Part shown: positions 4,087 to 32,057 of the stretch, piece by piece | Position numbering within the stretch: the stretch's first letter is position 1 | Layout: each line of letters begins with the position of its first letter | Source of the DNA: a virus | DNA length: 32,057 nt | Virus record (IMG/VR): IMGVR_UViG_3300025869_000052 | Span: 1-32,057 of that record | Strand: one strand, 5' to 3' | Made by a program: the position numbers and the translations under genes | Notes under the pieces: model-generated | What the model was told of the DNA's origin: nothing | The model's input: only the letters and a program-made list of their open reading frames with translations | The model's database searches: none

Positions 4087-4617
4087 ATGAAAAAAGATAA
4101 GCCATTGAAGCATTACGTAGACAACCAGCTGTTCTTAGAGAATATGGTCGTGTATAGAAACTCCGTATTAGCAGCTAGGGAGAACGAGATGCCTAGACCT
4201 AGAGTGCCTGAGTATATTGGCTCCTGCCTGTTCAAGATAGCAACGCATCTATCACGCAGACCAAACTTTGTCAATTATACCTTTCGAGATGATATGATTT
4301 CGGATGGCGTAGAAAACTGTCTATTGTATATCGACAACTTTAACCCCGAGAAATCAAAAAACCCATTTTCATATTTCACGCAGATCATATACTACGCATT
4401 CCTAAGAAGGATTCAGAAAGAAAAGAAACATCTATACATTAAGTATAAGAGCATGGAAAATGAGGTCATCAATACGCTGATTCAAAACTTGGGTGAGGAT
4501 CACGTAACCACTCAGCTCAATGGTATGATGCACGATGCATACAGCGAAGAGTTCATTGCAAACTTCATCCAAAGCTTTGAAGCAACCAAGAAAAAGAAAT
4601 CAAAAAAGAAGTCTTGA
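4087..4617 (+). CDS. 55: gp55 late-transcription sigma factor
   Basis: A sigma70-family protein that directs host RNA polymerase to TATAAATA late promoters together with the sliding clamp gp45. It has 176 residues (T4 gp55 has 185). The diagnostic segment is 'DNFNPEKSKNPFSYFTQIIYYAFLRRIQKEKK' at about residues 87-118, which corresponds to the region-2-like core. The C-terminus is a lysine-rich tail (KKKKSKKKS). A 76-base gap precedes it (4011-4086), in which I see only a GGA ribosome site close to the start. Exact or near-exact targets of this factor occur here at 1177, 17594, 27012 and possibly 28868. Confidence 0.95.
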   Translation: MKKDKPLKHYVDNQLFLENMVVYRNSVLAARENEMPRPRVPEYIGSCLFKIATHLSRRPNFVNYTFRDDMISDGVENCLLYIDNFNPEKSKNPFSYFTQIIYYAFLRRIQKEKKHLYIKYKSMENEVINTLIQNLGEDHVTTQLNGMMHDAYSEEFIANFIQSFEATKKKKSKKKS

Positions 4618-13184: not shown

Positions 13185-14123
13185 ATGTTAGAAAATGTAT
13201 TGTGGGTGGAAAAGTACCGCCCCAAAACTGTCGGTGATACGATACTTCCTCAAGGTCTTAAAAAAACCTTCGAGGAGTTCGTCGGCAAAAAAGTTATTCC
13301 AAATCTGATACTATCAGGTCGTGCTGGTATTGGTAAGACAACGATTGCAAAAGCTATGCTTGAGGAATTGGGGTGTTCTTACATGACGATTAATGGTTCG
13401 ATGGATAGGAATATTGATACGCTTCGTAATGAAATTCATAACTTTGCGTCTACCATTTCTATGAAAGGTGGGCGTAAATATGTCATTCTTGATGAAGCAG
13501 ATTATCTGAACCCCCAATCTACCCAGCCAGCACTTCGAAACTTCATCGAAGAGTTTTCTGCTAATTGTGGATTTATTCTCACTTGCAACTTCCCAAACAA
13601 AATTATTGAGCCTTTGCACAGTCGGTGTTCTCTTGTAGATTTCAACGTATCTAATGCAGAGATCAATAAATTGTCGAGCAAGTTTTTTGAGAGAACTAAA
13701 TTCATTCTCGACGAAGAAAACATTGAGTATGAAGATGTGGTTCTTGTAAAGCTCATTAAAAAGCACAATCCAGACTGGAGGCGCATCCTGAACGAACTTC
13801 AGAGATATGCTTCCTTGGGTAAAATTGATACGGGAATATTGACAAAATCGTTGGACACCGATATCGACGAACTTGTTGTTCATCTAAGGGAAAAGAACTT
13901 TACTGCGATGAGGAAGTGGGTTGGTGAAAACTTGGAGGGTGATGTTACCCCATTCTATCGTAAAGTATTCGATAGTATGACTGCTATCTTACAGGAAAAC
14001 TCTATACCGCAGATGATAATTCATCTCGGAAGATACCAGTATCAGTCTGCATTCGTCTCTGACCAAGAGATAAATATCGTATCATTCTTAACAGAAGTGA
14101 TGGCAGACTGTCAATTCAAGTAA
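13185..14123 (+). CDS. 44: gp44 clamp-loader ATPase subunit
   Basis: AAA+ subunit that, with gp62, opens and loads the gp45 clamp. It has 312 residues (T4 319). 'WVEKYRPKTVGDTILP' at the N-terminus, Walker A GRAGIGKTT (45-53), Walker B ILDEAD (101-106), sensor 1 'LTCN' (132-135) and the arginine finger SRC (146-148) are all visible. The start ATG 13185 follows a GGGGTG ribosome site. The partner gp62 is not adjacent as in T4 but lies 1.8 kb downstream at 15930, after four inserted genes. Confidence 0.95.
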   Translation: MLENVLWVEKYRPKTVGDTILPQGLKKTFEEFVGKKVIPNLILSGRAGIGKTTIAKAMLEELGCSYMTINGSMDRNIDTLRNEIHNFASTISMKGGRKYVILDEADYLNPQSTQPALRNFIEEFSANCGFILTCNFPNKIIEPLHSRCSLVDFNVSNAEINKLSSKFFERTKFILDEENIEYEDVVLVKLIKKHNPDWRRILNELQRYASLGKIDTGILTKSLDTDIDELVVHLREKNFTAMRKWVGENLEGDVTPFYRKVFDSMTAILQENSIPQMIIHLGRYQYQSAFVSDQEINIVSFLTEVMADCQFK

Positions 14124-22684: not shown

Positions 22685-24157
22685 ATGAACAAAAAAGCTT
22701 TAACAAGTTACACACACGTGGCCGTACCTGTAGAAAATATTGAAAAAACTGTAAAATGGCTTCTCGATATGATGTTTGCTGGAAAAATTATATTGAGTCC
22801 GGAGTACCAGCGGAATTTTGTTGCACGCCCAAAGTGGAGTAAGAAAATTGTAATTTCAATCTGGAATCGTAAAGGTGTTAACACACTACACTTAAGAGAC
22901 CTTGGTGATGGAACATATGAAGTCCTTGATGGACTTCAGAGGCTGCAAAGTATTTTTCTTTATATCAATGGAAAAATCTCTTTGACCACACCTAAAGGTG
23001 CGGATGGGGTGTATGTGCCTATGGGGAATTCCGAAACCTACAGAAAAATTTCATTAAAGTGGGAACACTTGACAGATGCTGATAAGCAAGCGTTTTATGA
23101 TTCTGTAATTGCGACTTCAATATACAACTCCGCAATGACGGACATAGAAGCAGCAGATAAGTTTGTTGAGCTAAACGATGGGAACGATTTAAAGGACCAA
23201 GAAAAACGAAATGGTATAAAAGGATTTTACACTTCTATGGTTCGATCAATAGTCAATCCGGATACTCCTTTTGACGAGTTGGGAACTTCCCTGCACCCTT
23301 TCTTTGAAGTCTTTAAACTGCGGAATGATCGTAGACAGGCTGAAGAATTGGTAGCAAAACTTGCTGCAGCATCTATCCTGTATAACGAAAACTTAAGCGA
23401 ATGGTTTTTAGCAACAGAAATTGATAGAGTTCTGTTAGATGAACAGTATGAATCTACGCCTGGAAGGACAGATTTGTCTGAGTGTAAAAAAACATACAAA
23501 ACTCTGAAGGAAATTTTGGATCAAATGCTTAAAATTGTCAATTCAGCTTCCGACGAGAAAATGGCTAAGAAATCTTTTTCTAGCGGACCTAAGATTCTGT
23601 TTGCTTTTGAATTTTTGCTTTACTTAAAGGCAATGAAGTTAGAAATTGTAGATTTCAAAGCCTTTGCTGATACTTACGTGCCGACAATGTACTCAATGTT
23701 TCTTGACCAAGAAACCACGTATGAGGGAAGGCAAAAAAGTAGGTTACTGGTAACTTGGAGCGGTATGTTAGGTCTGCACTTGAAAGATCAAATCTTTGCT
23801 AAGATTGGAATTTTCCTAAATGCGATAACAGTTGATGGTGAAATTTCTGGAGTCGTAGGAAAGCGTGTCCGATGCTTTAGTGAAGTTCAAATCTTAAATC
23901 GATTTGAACAGCAAGGTAAACGATGTGCAATCGAAGGTGCACCAGTCTTTATGAAAGACATCGAAGGTGGTCACATCATCTCACACGCAAATGGTGGAGA
24001 CAATGGCGATGATAACTTAATCGTCATCACTAAGGAAGTAAACCGAAAGATGGGACGCATGAACCTCGACGAATTCTTAATGAAGTATGGGGAGGAATAT
24101 CCCAATCACTTATGTCGAGATATTGTAGAAAGAATGGCTGCTAAACAAGCAGCCTAA
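22685..24157 (+). CDS. DUF262 (GmrSD-like) and HNH nuclease fusion
   Basis: A 490-residue protein. The N-terminal DUF262/ParB-like domain shows '[26 protein letters not shown]' (37-62) and DGLQR (82-86), the variant of the DGQQR motif. A helical middle follows. The C-terminus is an HNH domain: C414, then '[18 protein letters not shown]' (428-445) and N453. In GmrSD and related type IV systems DUF262 uses nucleotide hydrolysis to direct an HNH-fold nuclease (DUF1524) against modified DNA; here both appear in one chain with a short HNH. The gene has its own promoter, structured leader and terminator, so it behaves as an independent cargo unit between replication genes. It could act against competing phages, on host DNA, or as a homing-type nuclease. 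Confidence 0.8.
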
Positions 24158-27011: not shown

Positions 27012-27019
27012 TATAAATA
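27012..27019 (+). promoter_or_regulatory. T4-type late promoter TATAAATA
   Basis: An exact late octamer one base after the gp41 stop and 24 bases before the ATG of the next gene. It marks the change from replication genes to the late virion block. Confidence 0.9.
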
Positions 27020-27042: not shown

Positions 27043-28251
27043 ATGAAAACTTTTTCAAATTTTTTGTCGGAACAGAAGAACACTCACATGACCCACATTG
27101 AGGACAAGGTTCTCTACGGTGGTGTAAATGGTACCCGAGAAGCAATCTTTGCTCTGCGTGATATGCGGAATATGCTGTCGGGGCACGGCGGATCCGTCTC
27201 GGTCAAATGGGACGGGGCCCCTGCTATTTTTGCTGGTATAGATCCTAGTGACAAGAAATTCTTTGTTGCTAAGAAGGGTATATTCAATAAAAATCCTAAA
27301 GTGTATAAAACTCCGGCTGATATTGACGCAGATACTTCTGGTGATCTTGCCGCTAAACTGAAAGAAGCTTTAAAGCATCTCCCTAAACTTGGCATCAAAG
27401 GTGTCGTTCAGGGAGATTTTTTGTTTGGTCCTGGCGATGTAAAAGTCAAAACTATCGCTGGTGAAAAGTATGCAACCTTCCACCCCAACACAATTGTTTA
27501 TGCAGTTCCTATAGAACAAGCTAGTGCAGTTCGTGCTGCTAAGATAGGGATTGTGTGGCACACCACATATACAGGAAAAGACTTTATGTCGATGCGAGCG
27601 ACATATGGTGTGAATGTTTCGCAGTTTAGAAAATCCTTAGCTGTATGGTCACAAGATGCGATTTTGACTGATGTTACGAAAGCAACTATGACAAAGAAGG
27701 AGACTTCAGATGTTAACGCAATTTTATCAAAAATTGGAGTACTTTTTAACTCAATCAGTGGAACGACATTACGAACACTGGAGGCGAACCAACATCTCGC
27801 ACAGCACATCGAAACCTTCAACAACACCTATGTCAGAGCCGGATCAATTATCGGAGACACAAAAGAACATACAGAAAAGTTGATTGGTTGGATTAGAGAT
27901 AAATACCAAAAAGAAATTGATGCTAGAAAGACCGCAAAGGGTAAGAGTGCCCAGCAAGCAAAACTTGATGAGTTGCTTGAGTTTTTTTCCGAAGAGAATA
28001 AATCTAGTCTAGTAAAAATGTTCGAGTTGCAGAAGCTAATTGTTGATGCTAAACTTAGACTAATAAATAAGTTGAACGAGCTTCAATCTATTGACACGTT
28101 CGTTAGAACTAATAAGGGTTACAAAGTAACTGGTGCTGAAGGATTTGTTGCGGTTGATAAACTTAGCGGATCGGCAGTAAAACTTGTTGACCGTATGGAG
28201 TTTTCATACAACAACTTCTCACCTGACATAGTAAAAGGATGGCAAAAGTAA
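27043..28251 (+). CDS. Ligase/nucleotidyltransferase-like protein with capsid-targeting N-terminus
   Basis: A 402-residue protein. 'VSVKWDGAPAIFAG' (52-65) has the K-x-D-G motif of the covalent nucleotidyltransferase superfamily (DNA/RNA ligases, capping enzymes), with K55 as the predicted AMP- or GMP-carrying lysine. 'FFVAKKG' (73-79), 'VVQGDFLFG' (121-129) and, near the end, 'AEGFVAVDKLSGSAVKLV' (365-382) could be motifs III, IIIa and IV-V, although the wide spacing of the last is unusual. The N-terminus MKTFSNFLSEQ closely matches the T4 capsid-targeting sequence MKTYQEFIAE. It is behind an exact late promoter. The family name is not known to me; activity is inferred. Confidence 0.62.
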   Translation: MKTFSNFLSEQKNTHMTHIEDKVLYGGVNGTREAIFALRDMRNMLSGHGGSVSVKWDGAPAIFAGIDPSDKKFFVAKKGIFNKNPKVYKTPADIDADTSGDLAAKLKEALKHLPKLGIKGVVQGDFLFGPGDVKVKTIAGEKYATFHPNTIVYAVPIEQASAVRAAKIGIVWHTTYTGKDFMSMRATYGVNVSQFRKSLAVWSQDAILTDVTKATMTKKETSDVNAILSKIGVLFNSISGTTLRTLEANQHLAQHIETFNNTYVRAGSIIGDTKEHTEKLIGWIRDKYQKEIDARKTAKGKSAQQAKLDELLEFFSEENKSSLVKMFELQKLIVDAKLRLINKLNELQSIDTFVRTNKGYKVTGAEGFVAVDKLSGSAVKLVDRMEFSYNNFSPDIVKGWQK

Positions 28252-28866
28252 ATGTACTCGTTCAAACAGTTTATTAATGAGCAACAAGGTAAGGAAGCAT
28301 TCTTTACATTTGGAAGAATGAACCCACCCACCGTTGGACACGGTAAACTTGTTGACGTGCTTGCCAGAAAAGCGGGCAGAAATCCGTTTTTTGTATATCT
28401 GTCACATTCGCAGGATCCTAAGAAAAATCCTCTGACATACGATCAGAAAATCAAGCACGTTCGTAAGATGTTCCCAAAACACTCTAAAAATATTATTCTG
28501 GATAAGAAAGTCAAAAACGTTTTTGATATTGCCGGTTCACTACATGCCAAAGGATTTGATAAAGTCACGATGGTTGTTGGTGCTGATAGAATATCTGAAT
28601 TTGAAACACTGTTAAATAAGTATAATGGTGTAAAGGCCCGCCACGGATTTTATGACTTTAAACAGATCAATGTTGTATCTGCGGGGGATAGAGACCCTGA
28701 CGCAGAAGGGGTTGAGGGAATGTCTGCTTCTAAGCAAAGAGCGAATGTCTCTAAGGGTGACTTTGACACATTTAAGAAAGGTGTTTCTGTCAGCATGTCT
28801 GCCACAGACACCAAAAAGTTGTTCGACGACTTGAGGGCTGGAATGGGAATGTCAAAAGTTAAATAA
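28252..28866 (+). CDS. Cytidylyltransferase-like nucleotidyltransferase with capsid-targeting N-terminus
   Basis: A 204-residue protein. 'FFTFGRMNPPTVGHGKLVDVLA' (17-38) is the first strand and T-x-G-H (27-30) signature of the HIGH-type nucleotidylyltransferases (NMN adenylyltransferase, cytidylyltransferases). 'MVVGADR' (107-113) and 'GMSASKQR' (156-163), the ISxTxxR-like motif, complete the active site. The preferred substrate (NMN, glycerol-phosphate, other) cannot be read from the sequence. The N-terminus MYSFKQFINEQ resembles the T4 capsid-targeting peptide. It begins directly after the preceding stop, so it shares the late transcript. Confidence 0.8.
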   Translation: MYSFKQFINEQQGKEAFFTFGRMNPPTVGHGKLVDVLARKAGRNPFFVYLSHSQDPKKNPLTYDQKIKHVRKMFPKHSKNIILDKKVKNVFDIAGSLHAKGFDKVTMVVGADRISEFETLLNKYNGVKARHGFYDFKQINVVSAGDRDPDAEGVEGMSASKQRANVSKGDFDTFKKGVSVSMSATDTKKLFDDLRAGMGMSKVK

Positions 28867-28867
28867 T

Positions 28868-28875
28868 CATAAATA
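28868..28875 (+). promoter_or_regulatory. Probable late promoter variant CATAAATA
   Basis: One mismatch from TATAAATA, placed two bases after the preceding stop and about 60 bases before the next start. Such variants occur in T4-superfamily late promoters; the evidence is position plus near-match only. Confidence 0.5.
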
Positions 28876-28890
28876 CACATATAACTGCAG

Positions 28891-28937
28891 TAAGGCTAAG
28901 GCAAACCTGCGGTGGGATAAGACTAAGGTAAACTCCA
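28891..28937 (+). repeat. Imperfect 27-base-period direct repeat in a leader
   Basis: TAAGGCTAAGGCAAACCTGC (28891-28910) and TAAGACTAAGGTAAACTCCA (28918-28937) share 14 of 20 bases. The second copy carries the AAGG that could serve as ribosome site for the gene at 28938; the first copy carries the same element without a start codon. Confidence 0.6.
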
Positions 28938-30026
28938 ATGGAAGATATGCAAACAGAAGTTCTGTCTATGCAGCAGCGCCGAAAACGCGGAATGCAGTTG
29001 CGCAGAAGAAAAACTAGAATTAAAAGACAACGCCAGTTGGTTATGCGACGATTTGCAGACCGAGCGCGCATTTCTAAAAGAGCCAGACGCGGAGCAAGAA
29101 TGATGCTCAAGAAGCGTTATGCTGGCGGAAAATCCTACGGAAAGTTGTCACCCGCACAGAAAATGACTGTGGATAGACGCACAGAAAAGATGAAGAAATT
29201 CGTCAGTCGGGTTGCCGCACGTTTAACTCCACAATTCCGAAGAAAAGAAATCGAAAGAAAAAGAGGAACTAAATCAGAAGATTTGGATTTGGATTTTGGT
29301 TCTTTGTTTGTAGAAGATTACGATGATCCAAATACCGATGGGTTACGGATGGCAGAAGCTCAACTGTACGAAATCTCGGAAGATGCGTTATCAATCCTTG
29401 AAATTATGTCTGATATGGATGAAGAGCCTGATGAGTGGATTCTTTCTAAAATCACTTTAGCGTCAGACTATATTTCTACGGTTAGAGACTATCTCGAATA
29501 CTACACCGAAGAAGAAGATGATGAGGATGATGAGGATGACGACGAAGAGGAATATTCCGAGTCTGAAATGATTTCTGCTATGTTGCGCGCTGGTAAGGAG
29601 TCGTTCTCGGAAGAAGAGATCGAAGAACTTGATGGATTTTTTGAGGAATATTCTAGTTTGGTAAAGAAAGCCGAACGGGCTAATATGCCATTTGATATTG
29701 TATTGGAAGTGTATAACCGTGGATTAGATTCATACGAAAATCAGCGATTTAAAACTCCACAACAACTCGGATTTGCTCGTGTGAATAGTTTTATCGCGGA
29801 TGGTAGTGTGGATGAAGATTTGCAAGAAAAAGTTTTAGAGTATGGTACCGACGATGCTTTTATCGCTTATGCTAGAGCTACGCCTGGGCAAAACCCCGAT
29901 ATTGCCACTATGAAGTATGATATGGATTCTGTTTTAAATGCGTTGAATGATATCAACACACAAAGAATTAAGAAGATTCATGAAGAGATCGATGATGAAT
30001 TTTCTGGCATATTTGATAAGGAATAA
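28938..30026 (+). CDS. Bipolar charged virion/internal protein
   Basis: A 362-residue protein. The first about 110 residues are extremely basic (for example QRRKRGMQLRRRKTRIKRQR and RRRTEKMKKFVSRVAARL-type helices). From about 115 onward it is strongly acidic, including an E/D run at 195-207. 'ALSILEIMSDMDEEPDEWILSKITLASDYISTVRDYLEYY' is a helical module I associate with marine myovirus structural proteins. It is behind a probable late promoter and between genes with capsid-targeting peptides. Basic arms suit DNA contact inside the head; no enzymatic motif is visible. Confidence 0.75.
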   Translation: MEDMQTEVLSMQQRRKRGMQLRRRKTRIKRQRQLVMRRFADRARISKRARRGARMMLKKRYAGGKSYGKLSPAQKMTVDRRTEKMKKFVSRVAARLTPQFRRKEIERKRGTKSEDLDLDFGSLFVEDYDDPNTDGLRMAEAQLYEISEDALSILEIMSDMDEEPDEWILSKITLASDYISTVRDYLEYYTEEEDDEDDEDDDEEEYSESEMISAMLRAGKESFSEEEIEELDGFFEEYSSLVKKAERANMPFDIVLEVYNRGLDSYENQRFKTPQQLGFARVNSFIADGSVDEDLQEKVLEYGTDDAFIAYARATPGQNPDIATMKYDMDSVLNALNDINTQRIKKIHEEIDDEFSGIFDKE

Positions 30027-30028
30027 CG

Positions 30029-30379
30029 ATGAAAACATTTAGGCAACACCTAGAAGAGATGATTGATTGTCAGTGCGAATCTGTACAAGAAGAATTAGTT
30101 ATAACCGAATCTGAGTATCAGGGTAAGAAGGTAGAACTAAATAATCCTTTTAGGTTGCCCTCTGGTTCGAACAAAAAGTTTGGTGTGTATGTAAAGAACG
30201 ACAAGGGTAATGTTGTAAAAGTTACTTTTGGCGATCCGAATATGGAAATTAAACGGGATGATCCCGAAAGGAGAAAATCATTCAGGGCAAGACACGGTTG
30301 CGACAATCCTGGCCCTAAATGGAAAGCAAATTATTGGTCTTGTTACCAATGGCGCGCTAGTGCTAAAGTAGATAACTAA
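30029..30379 (+). CDS. Small protein with C-terminal GDPNMEIKRDDPERR domain and capsid-targeting-like N-terminus
   Basis: A 116-residue protein. From residue 33 it carries a highly conserved phage domain: 'YQGKKVELNNPFRLPSGSNKKFGVYVKN', 'VTFGDPNMEIKRDDPERRKSF', 'RHGCDNPGPKWKANYWSC'. I associate this with head-region proteins of marine phages, sometimes fused to larger head proteins. Cysteines near the end (C96, C107 by eye) could bind metal. The N-terminus MKTFRQHLEEM resembles the T4 capsid-targeting peptide. The biochemical function is unknown. Confidence 0.72.
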   Translation: MKTFRQHLEEMIDCQCESVQEELVITESEYQGKKVELNNPFRLPSGSNKKFGVYVKNDKGNVVKVTFGDPNMEIKRDDPERRKSFRARHGCDNPGPKWKANYWSCYQWRASAKVDN

Positions 30380-30392
30380 GAGGTAGATGTAA

Positions 30393-30677
30393 ATGGACCA
30401 GCATACAGACGATAGGCTTCAACGGATTGAAGACAAGTTGGATAAAATGTCGGATGCTATTGTAGCATTAGCAAGAGTAGAAGAAAAGATTACAGACCTT
30501 GAGGTGAGACGCGCCGAAGGGCACGAACGACTTAATAGAATGTCGGGTAAAATGGATGATATCGATGGGATTGTTATCTCTCTGCGAGAACGTATGTCAG
30601 TAATGACCAAGATTATGTGGTTGGTTGGTGCTGGTGTTATATCATCATTAATGACACACTTACCGGAAATATTGTAA
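30393..30677 (+). CDS. Coiled-coil protein with C-terminal membrane segment (XhlA-like layout)
   Basis: A 94-residue protein. Residues 1-70 are a heptad-rich helix (DDRLQRIEDKLDKMSDAIVALA, then VEEKITDLEVRRAEGHERL and DDIDGIVISLRERM). Residues 72-90 (IMWLVGAGVISSLMTHLPEI) form one membrane segment at the end. The arrangement is that of haemolysin XhlA-type phage proteins, which associate with the membrane during lysis, but it could also be a virion component, given its position. The stop shares a base with the next start (TAATG). Confidence 0.7.
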   Translation: MDQHTDDRLQRIEDKLDKMSDAIVALARVEEKITDLEVRRAEGHERLNRMSGKMDDIDGIVISLRERMSVMTKIMWLVGAGVISSLMTHLPEIL

Positions 30678-32057
30678 TGAAAGATGATATTAAAGAATCG
30701 TTGAGAATAAGACAACGAGACGTTAAACCAGCAACAAAACATATTGCGTCTCAGCATATTGAAAAAGGAAACCTGAAGAAAGTCATAGAACTTTTAAAGT
30801 TTTTGGGTAAGAAAGTAAATGTGGATAAATCTACTGAAGGAACCAGCAAAGCAGTTTGGACAATAGAGGGTGCTATGAAAATTGAAGAAGCCAAGAAAAA
30901 GAAAGATGACAAGCGTAAAGACGATCCCTGCTGGGATGGTTATAAACAGGTTGGGATGAAGAAAAAGAATGGTAAAGAAGTGCCCAACTGTGTTCCAGAA
31001 GAAACCGAGATTACTGAAATGAAACTGCCTATTTCTGACGAAATGTTCAAGTCATTGAAGAAAGGTGACAAGATTAAGATTAACTTTGATTCTTCTATCA
31101 AGAAAGGCAACGAAAACACATACGTTGTCAAGTCCAAGAGCAAATCAGCAAAGTACAATCTCGAAAAGATTGCGCTAAAAAACGTTGCCAATCCAGTTGC
31201 ACAAGCATCATATCTCTATAACAGACAGGGCAAAGTTACAATGGCGCAGGGTGACATGGCAGTGACAATGAACTCTGTCGTAAAGGAAGCCGTGAGTGCA
31301 CTTGGGGATTATCAAGCAAATCTAAATCCGGACAGTTCTAAACCTTTGGGCGGTAAAATAGTAAGACCACATTTAGTTAAACCGTACAAGAACAGGAAAC
31401 ATGCTTCAAGATGGATGGGGGTTGTGGATGATTTCGACGACGCTGTGAAGAAATATCCACGCAAAGCTGTTAGGGAATTAGGTAAAAAAGATCAATGGGG
31501 GAACAAAATTGTGCAAATTTGGGAAAATGAAAATATAGAACTTGAAGCTGCGAATTTGTTGGATGAAGGTATGTCATCATCACAAATCGCACAACTGAAA
31601 AAAGCATACGGAAGCATCGAGAGAATTGATGTTACGGGGCCCGCTTATAAGAAAGCAAAGGCATTCATTGCTAATATGAGCAAAGATGAGTTGATGACTA
31701 TCGCCAAAGCAAAAGTCAAGTGGTTGTCACAATTTGCGGCATCAGAACTTGCTAAGTCTCACGACGTTAAGTTGAAAGCAAAAGACTACATGGAATCTCT
31801 ATCATTTAGTGATTTGCGTAAAAATCTTGAAGAAGGATCTCGCGAAGCCGATATTAAAAAGACTATGCAAAAATTAAGAAATGCACCTAAAGGTGCTCCT
31901 GTGATGAAAAAAGCAGGTAAAGATGCAAAGATGTTAAGATTTGTTCTAAATCGCGATGTAAAATTAAGAAAAGAATCTATTGAACTTGATGAAGCAATTG
32001 ACTTCCGTAAAGCACATCAAGAAATCATGGCATATGCCAAGAAGAGTGGTGGTATTG
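30677..32057 (+). CDS. Large virion-type protein, 3' end beyond the window
   Basis: An open frame of at least 460 codons running from ATG 30677 to the last base without a stop. Near residues 78-110 it carries 'DDPCWDGYKQVGMKKKNGKEVPNCVPEE', a C-W-x-G-Y...VPNCV motif that I recognise as recurrent in marine myovirus head proteins. The middle is lysine-rich with few aromatics. 'IELDEAIDFRKAHQEIMAYAKKSGGI' at the window end is a second recurrent module. The sequence looks like a chain of short modules rather than one globular enzyme. No capsid-targeting peptide is visible at its N-terminus (MKDDIKESLRIRQRDVK). Expressed by coupling with the gene before it. Confidence 0.8.
   Translation, partial: MKDDIKESLRIRQRDVKPATKHIASQHIEKGNLKKVIELLKFLGKKVNVDKSTEGTSKAVWTIEGAMKIEEAKKKKDDKRKDDPCWDGYKQVGMKKKNGKEVPNCVPEETEITEMKLPISDEMFKSLKKGDKIKINFDSSIKKGNENTYVVKSKSKSAKYNLEKIALKNVANPVAQASYLYNRQGKVTMAQGDMAVTMNSVVKEAVSALGDYQANLNPDSSKPLGGKIVRPHLVKPYKNRKHASRWMGVVDDFDDAVKKYPRKAVRELGKKDQWGNKIVQIWENENIELEAANLLDEGMSSSQIAQLKKAYGSIERIDVTGPAYKKAKAFIANMSKDELMTIAKAKVKWLSQFAASELAKSHDVKLKAKDYMESLSFSDLRKNLEEGSREADIKKTMQKLRNAPKGAPVMKKAGKDAKMLRFVLNRDVKLRKESIELDEAIDFRKAHQEIMAYAKKSGGI

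Follow-up and report, generated by a model that had tools for sequence, protein, structure and literature searches.

A short N-terminal peptide shared by three unrelated proteins of an uncultured T4-like phage is very probably a T4-type capsid targeting sequence

The window analysed here comes from an uncultured T4-like phage and is a fragment of 32 kb (IMG/VR record IMGVR_UViG_3300025869_000052, positions 1 to 32,057). Directly 3' of its gp41 gene lie, in this order, the genes of a DUF6267 protein (27043), a cytidylyltransferase-like protein (28252), a protein with a basic N-terminus (28938) and a phrog_7595 family protein (30029). Three of the open reading frames (ORFs; 27043-28251, 28252-28866 and 30029-30379) start with the ten-residue peptides MKTFSNFLSE, MYSFKQFINE and MKTFRQHLEE, exactly as described in a first-pass annotation made from the sequence alone, and the [IL]-x-E ending pointed out there was seen in all three (LSE, INE and LEE). 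The three tagged proteins, all with basic pI (Table 1), are otherwise unrelated, as had also been stated: BLASTP of the mature parts returned chance-level pieces only, the best being a 20-residue stretch with an E of about 0.01-0.05.

The strict pattern taken from that annotation, M-[KY]-[TS]-F-x-x-[FH]-[IL]-x-E, was found by six-frame scanning of every ATG, GTG and TTG at only 3 sites in the 32 kb, each of them a tagged gene start. A broader pattern, M-x(1-4)-F-x-x-[FYH]-[ILM]-x-E, occurred at 3/38 predicted genes, the three tagged ones only, and residue shuffling inside the N-termini of the 38 genes gave a mean of 0.06 matches with a maximum of 1 (200 shuffles).

Conservation of the peptide was determined separately for each family. 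DUF6267 homologs were picked by whole-protein similarity, not by the motif, and were aligned on the conserved KNTHMTHIED after the peptide. Among these 79 homologs, which have 67 different N-terminal 12-mers, the conserved residues were F4 (76/79), F/Y/H7 (74/79), I/L8 (79/79) and E10 (79/79), while positions 1-3, 5 and 6 varied freely and position 9 was mainly T or S. In IPIII of T4, residues 4 and 7 control targeting and residues 8 and 10 control processing (PMC9026906); since the positions conserved in DUF6267 are these same determinants, the capsid-targeting reading is supported. The peptide was present in 70/70 cytidylyltransferase orthologs, in 65 of them with strict spacing. In the alignment of orthologs of the 30029 protein only F4 is invariant, and position 7 mostly holds an aromatic residue or His. 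The three window proteins themselves have aromatic residues at 4 and 7, I/L at 8 and Glu at 10, with His7 in the third. The T4 peptide MKTYQEFIAE had been given in the annotation as the start of IPI, IPII and IPIII; this is correct for IPII and IPIII in the T4 genome, but the start of IPI is only similar to it (PMC9026906).

The virion test was performed by matching published protein lists to the N-termini of annotated genes. In S-CREM2, for which 52/219 proteins were detected in CsCl-purified virions (PMC10665884), the strict motif stands at three annotated gene starts and 3/3 of the products are virion proteins: the SAM hydrolase gp6 (MKDFDSFLEE), the APH-like kinase gp14 (VKRFDAFLTE) and the cytidylyltransferase gp154 (MKNFSSFLTE). 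With a looser motif 5/7 were in the virion, the additional proteins being gp13 and gp136 (detected) and gp30 and gp175 (undetected). The virion NMNAT gp91 of S-SCSM1 begins with MKSFLQFLKE (proteome in PMC9602691), and with both phages combined 4/5 proteins bearing the strict motif are virion proteins (P = 0.007). The P-HM2 gene 163, a cytidylyltransferase, bears the label T4-GC 190, which was listed as an experimentally determined virion protein by Sullivan et al. (PMC3037559).

Two further proteins stand apart from these counts. The NadR-like protein of S-CREM1 begins with MKRYTNFLSE, and the S-CREM1 proteome (14 detected proteins) forms no part of the test. The Cas9-annotated virion protein gp12 of S-CREM2 (L345, 7704-10313) has, after a short extension, a tag-like FASFMAEA (residues 19-26) and was left out, as its FASFMAE (residues 19-25) is not N-terminal; it has KAxxLGLVSDGHGxxxD in common with tagged proteins of L175, L189 and L266.

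IMG/VR was scanned with a DNA pattern for M-K-T-F-x-x-F-[ILM]-x-E, by which at least 120 contigs were matched; the control scan with the reversed peptide was complete and gave 54 contigs. Among the matches listed, 124/132 MKTFxxF[ILM]xE sites begin an ORF of at least 60 aa or one running off the contig, compared with just 8/54 in the reversed-peptide control, and T4-like proteins were matched at 100/120 loci listed versus 12/54 control loci. At least 119 tagged proteins of 60 aa or more were obtained, in at least 58 single-linkage families, so that the peptide stands on many further unrelated proteins, mostly on T4-like contigs. Cargo matches included ART-PolyVal, DUF3990, HD_4, lytic transglycosylase (DPBB), zinc protease, GNAT, Cpn10, HNH, CTP_transf_like and DUF6267. 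As a marker of motif contigs gp21 (PF03420) was rejected, with 6/30 versus 10/35 reversed-peptide controls giving no discrimination; the contigs are fragmentary and differ widely in size, which makes this marker uninformative, and T4-like gene content was used instead. In one contig (L268, 6505-9422) the minus strand encodes four unrelated proteins with MKTFKQFI.E, a putative cargo cassette.

A gp21-type protease was present in 12/12 related records, and gp23 of related phages has a candidate maturation site resembling that of the tag before the conserved core (e.g. GGFLTE|T, NFLAE|T, GFMTE|A and AFLSE|A). An exact T4-type late promoter box, TATAAATA, lies just after gp41 (Table 1), and the gp55 late sigma is encoded in the window at 4087-4617 (phrog_234). 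When present at tagged genes, the TATAAATA box was 30-50 nt upstream in 35/36, while it was found at 0/21 gp41, uvsX and gp43 genes by a script whose run-detection was crude. Over all genes the late-promoter test gave only a twofold excess (36/194 versus 130/1388); this excess is small because many untagged genes are also late, and the comparison with gp41, uvsX and gp43 is more apt.

We therefore consider it very likely that the three proteins share a capsid targeting sequence of the T4 type, by which they would be packaged, cleaved by gp21 and ejected with the DNA; this interpretation, already put forward in the annotation, is supported by the conserved positions, the many unrelated cargoes and the virion residence in two cultured phages. 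The tagged proteins would be made late from the gp55-type TATAAATA promoter 3' of the replication gene gp41. Roughly the first ten residues of each, in which F4 and F/Y/H7 are the contacts, would bind the prohead core and lead to enclosure in the prohead, where the gp21 prohead protease would cut after Glu10 ([IL]-x-E), at the type of site that it uses in gp23 maturation. The freed proteins would remain with the packaged DNA and follow it into the next host. The cargo in this case would be the DUF6267 protein (possibly a ligase-like nucleotidyltransferase), the NMNAT/cytidylyltransferase-like enzyme and the small basic protein. Packaging is supported by homologs, and cleavage, release and injection would proceed by analogy with T4; for the phage of the window itself, we infer all steps of the model.

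Several observations weigh against this interpretation. The virion evidence stems from S-CREM2 and S-SCSM1, not from the source phage of the window, and as the window stops short of gp21, the protease of this phage is a predicted one. SSCSM1_30 (MKTFKQFMSE, 106 residues) is unreported in the S-SCSM1 virion, which makes the strict count 1/2 there; the cytidylyltransferase of S-CREM2 was detected by 3 peptides only, and its authors allow for lysate carry-over (PMC10665884); and no virion report of DUF6267 was found in the available text of the cited proteome literature. Among the larger motif-bearing IMG/VR records gp21 was present in only 6/30, which are the same ones that have gp23; most other records are fragments, and a few may be of non-T4 origin. 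Positions 8 and 10 are variable in the 30029 family and the cleavage half is mostly lost, and the case of this protein is weaker for that reason.

The last observation is also what would be expected if the peptide directs proteins to the head but is not cut at its Glu, so that they would be injected uncut. F4 is invariant in the 30029 family while positions 8 and 10 are not, and Asp at position 10 stops processing in T4 although targeting persists (PMC9026906), so that targeting without processing is a fair reading for this family. As a general account it is unlikely, since [IL]-x-E is invariant in DUF6267 and the cytidylyltransferase and matches the sites at which gp23 of these phages would be matured, and untagged homologs start near the predicted cut. 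That the resemblance arose by chance, or by shared ancestry of the whole proteins, is scarcely credible. The motif is short (ten residues), and the DUF6267 and cytidylyltransferase genes adjoin and are fused in some phages; but the shuffling expectation is far below the three matches found, the peptide stands on at least 58 unrelated families, and the reversed-peptide control fails to behave likewise. Common ancestry of the full-length proteins, named in the annotation as a finding that would speak against its proposal, is contradicted by the unrelated mature parts.

A different function was considered, namely binding to the sliding clamp (gp45): in the manner of the C-terminal tails of gp43 and gp55, the peptide would anchor DNA-modifying enzymes to the machinery of replication or transcription. 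These tails in the relatives (LEDFFG, LDDFFA, LSEFF and TDFLVDD) have a similarly spaced aromatic/hydrophobic pair, which also counts against capsid targeting, and the tagged genes adjoin replication genes and part of the cargo acts on nucleic acids. However, the tails have L where the tag has F, and they are C-terminal with no fixed Glu three residues on, whereas E10 is invariant in the DUF6267 tag. A SAM hydrolase, a kinase, an ADP-ribosyltransferase, an RlpA-like protein and Cpn10 would have no reason to ride on the clamp, and for the near-identical peptide of T4 a role as capsid signal has been proven by experiment (PMC9026906). Clamp binding was set aside because of the match to the virion proteomes, in which tagged proteins occur, and is in our judgement very improbable.

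The targeting peptides of T-even internal proteins are textbook knowledge. The peptide described here resembles those of T4 IPI, IPII and IPIII in being a ten-residue N-terminal sequence with key positions 4, 7, 8 and 10, borne by basic proteins that are unrelated beyond it in a phage lineage of the gp21/gp23 type, and T4 IPII and IPIII were recovered by the same motif scan. Position 4 is Phe here and Tyr in T4, the cargo includes recognisable enzymes and not small GmrSD inhibitors, and the genes follow gp41 in phages that are Kyanoviridae-like or environmental, not T-even. Closer in cargo are S-CREM2 gp154, S-SCSM1 gp91 and T4-GC 190, homologous NMNAT/cytidylyltransferases found in CsCl-purified virions, although the P-HM2 ortholog is without the peptide. 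Encapsidation was suspected by the S-CREM2 and S-SCSM1 authors, and in the available text of the papers on the cyanophage virion NMNAT no signal for packaging is named or proposed (PMC10665884, PMC9602691). DarB of P1 likewise has an N-terminal signal that is enough to carry a reporter into the capsid (PMC9024508); unlike this tag it was localised to residues 6-10, with 30 residues used in the test, P1 is not T4-like, and the two were compared by description only. The same cargo classes occur among the polyvalent proteins and head-packaged ADP-ribosyltransferases of Iyer, Burroughs and Aravind, with ART-PolyVal and DUF3990 standing behind the peptide here; in the available text of that work the case for head packaging drew on MuF/portal fusions and gene neighbourhoods and not on this peptide (PMC5512222, PMC9503650).

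Targeting peptides have already been used to find ip genes in T-even phages (PMC12373910). In a literature search that left most subscription journals outside its reach, no paper with these peptide strings or with DUF6267 was found, and 'capsid targeting' and 'cyanophage' occurred together only in a T4 review. The mechanism is known from T4, and the breadth across lineages and the enzyme cargo appear to be new. Across environmental T4-like phages the peptide probably labels a large and exchangeable set of enzymes that are packaged in the head and injected, comprising ADP-ribosyltransferases, HD phosphohydrolases, proteases, acetyltransferases, nucleases, NMNATs, a SAM hydrolase, kinases and a Cas9-like nuclease. 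Because matching peptides stand on enzymes detected by mass spectrometry in cultured marine phage particles, injected cargo would be recognisable from sequence. If this is true, the first proteins to meet the host could be listed from sequence alone even in phages that were never cultured, giving a handle on genes of uncultured T4-like phages that act at infection, when host defences decide the outcome. Enzymes in cyanophage virions (NMNAT, SAM hydrolase and kinases) have been reported repeatedly with lysate carry-over left open (PMC10665884, PMC9602691), and a tag shared with T4 internal proteins offers both a packaging mechanism and a test for them. The tag set may also serve for loading proteins into marine phage heads.

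Judged by sequence comparison, the tag is a module separate from the protein it heads. The DUF6267 homologs of P-HM2 and S-WAM2 start near the predicted cut, that of P-HM2 with MSKNTHLEHLED, and at loci downstream of gp41 the tag stands on many unrelated families. The 28938 protein, encoded between the second and third tagged genes, is without the peptide, and a TAA 9 nt upstream of its ATG excludes an in-frame N-terminal extension; orthologs of its basic part carry a peptide in C48C1, L022 and L060, which the annotation had overlooked. In the C48C1 cytidyltransferase (L082, OQ984149; 13622-15031) the deposited start MNPPTIGHGK (L082 13688) leaves out both the targeting peptide and the beginning of the active-site region, while a GTG at 13622 yields VIKNFSQYLLEEEREVYFTFGRMNPPTIGHG; starts of tagged genes are likely mis-annotated in other records too. 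Divergent N-termini (MKDFKKLREE, MKTFKQLREE and MIPFILKE) were seen in S-WAM2 (L087, 5733-5987 and 6570-7109) and HTVC008M (L083, 13742-14404), and these cyanophage and pelagiphage forms may represent a variant tag.

Table 1. Positions of the tagged genes, their peptides and associated features in the window
Feature	Position	Strand	Remarks
T4-type late promoter (-10), TATAAATA	27012..27019	+	exact match, 31 nt upstream of first tagged gene, just after gp41
DUF6267 protein	27043..28251	+	402 aa, pI 9.5; PF19782 E 8e-105, phrog_455
Targeting peptide 1, MKTFSNFLSE	27043..27072	+	predicted cleavage after E10
Cytidylyltransferase / NMNAT-like enzyme	28252..28866	+	204 aa, pI 9.8; PF01467 E 6e-8
Targeting peptide 2, MYSFKQFINE	28252..28281	+	predicted cleavage after E10
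Basic-N-terminus protein, no targeting peptide	28938..30026	+	first 125 residues pI 11.9, remainder acidic
Small basic phrog_7595 family protein	30029..30379	+	116 aa, pI 8.9; FRARHxCxxPGP...YWSC
Targeting peptide 3, MKTFRQHLEE	30029..30058	+	cleavage half variable among orthologs

The cargo proteins were characterised by profiles and structure models. The DUF6267 protein matched PF19782 with 351.7 bits (cut-off 27), and K55-x-D57-G58, E366-G367-x-V369 and K380 are invariant in 38 sequences. These KxDG, EGxV and K motifs suggest a covalent nucleotidyltransferase (ligase-like) fold, and DUF6267 is a candidate member of that class by its motifs. Its AlphaFold model (pLDDT 72, C-terminal 52 residues unresolved) gave no significant match in a PDB fold search, and no ligase Pfam match was obtained at E 0.1. 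The 28252 protein matched the cytidylyltransferase-like profile PF01467 with 33.4 bits (cut-off 21) as well as phrog_3041, phrog_395 and positions 422-603 of phrog_455, and may act on NAD metabolism. Some cyanophages, e.g. S-PM2, have DUF6267 fused to the cytidylyltransferase, so that the two probably act together. For the model of the 30029 protein (mb47b3065ef16) no significant PDB fold match was found.

The window begins within the gene of the major head protein gp23, and its other genes include gp19, uvsY, uvsW, gp55, gp47/46, clamp and clamp-loader genes, uvsX and the gp41-type helicase gene. Type IV restriction enzymes of the GmrSD kind are the target of inhibition by T4 internal proteins. 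A relative of such enzymes is encoded at 22685-24157, where a GmrSD N-terminal domain (DUF262) was accompanied by a weak signal for HNH; T4 internal proteins are anti-restriction factors (PMC12373910). The 30029 gene is followed by that of a coiled-coil protein and then by an open-ended reading frame (30677-32057) with DDPCWDGYKQVGMKKKNGKEVPNC, and a similar CWSGYKPAPGKKAYEKGSC lies inside a tagged HicA-like protein of L215.

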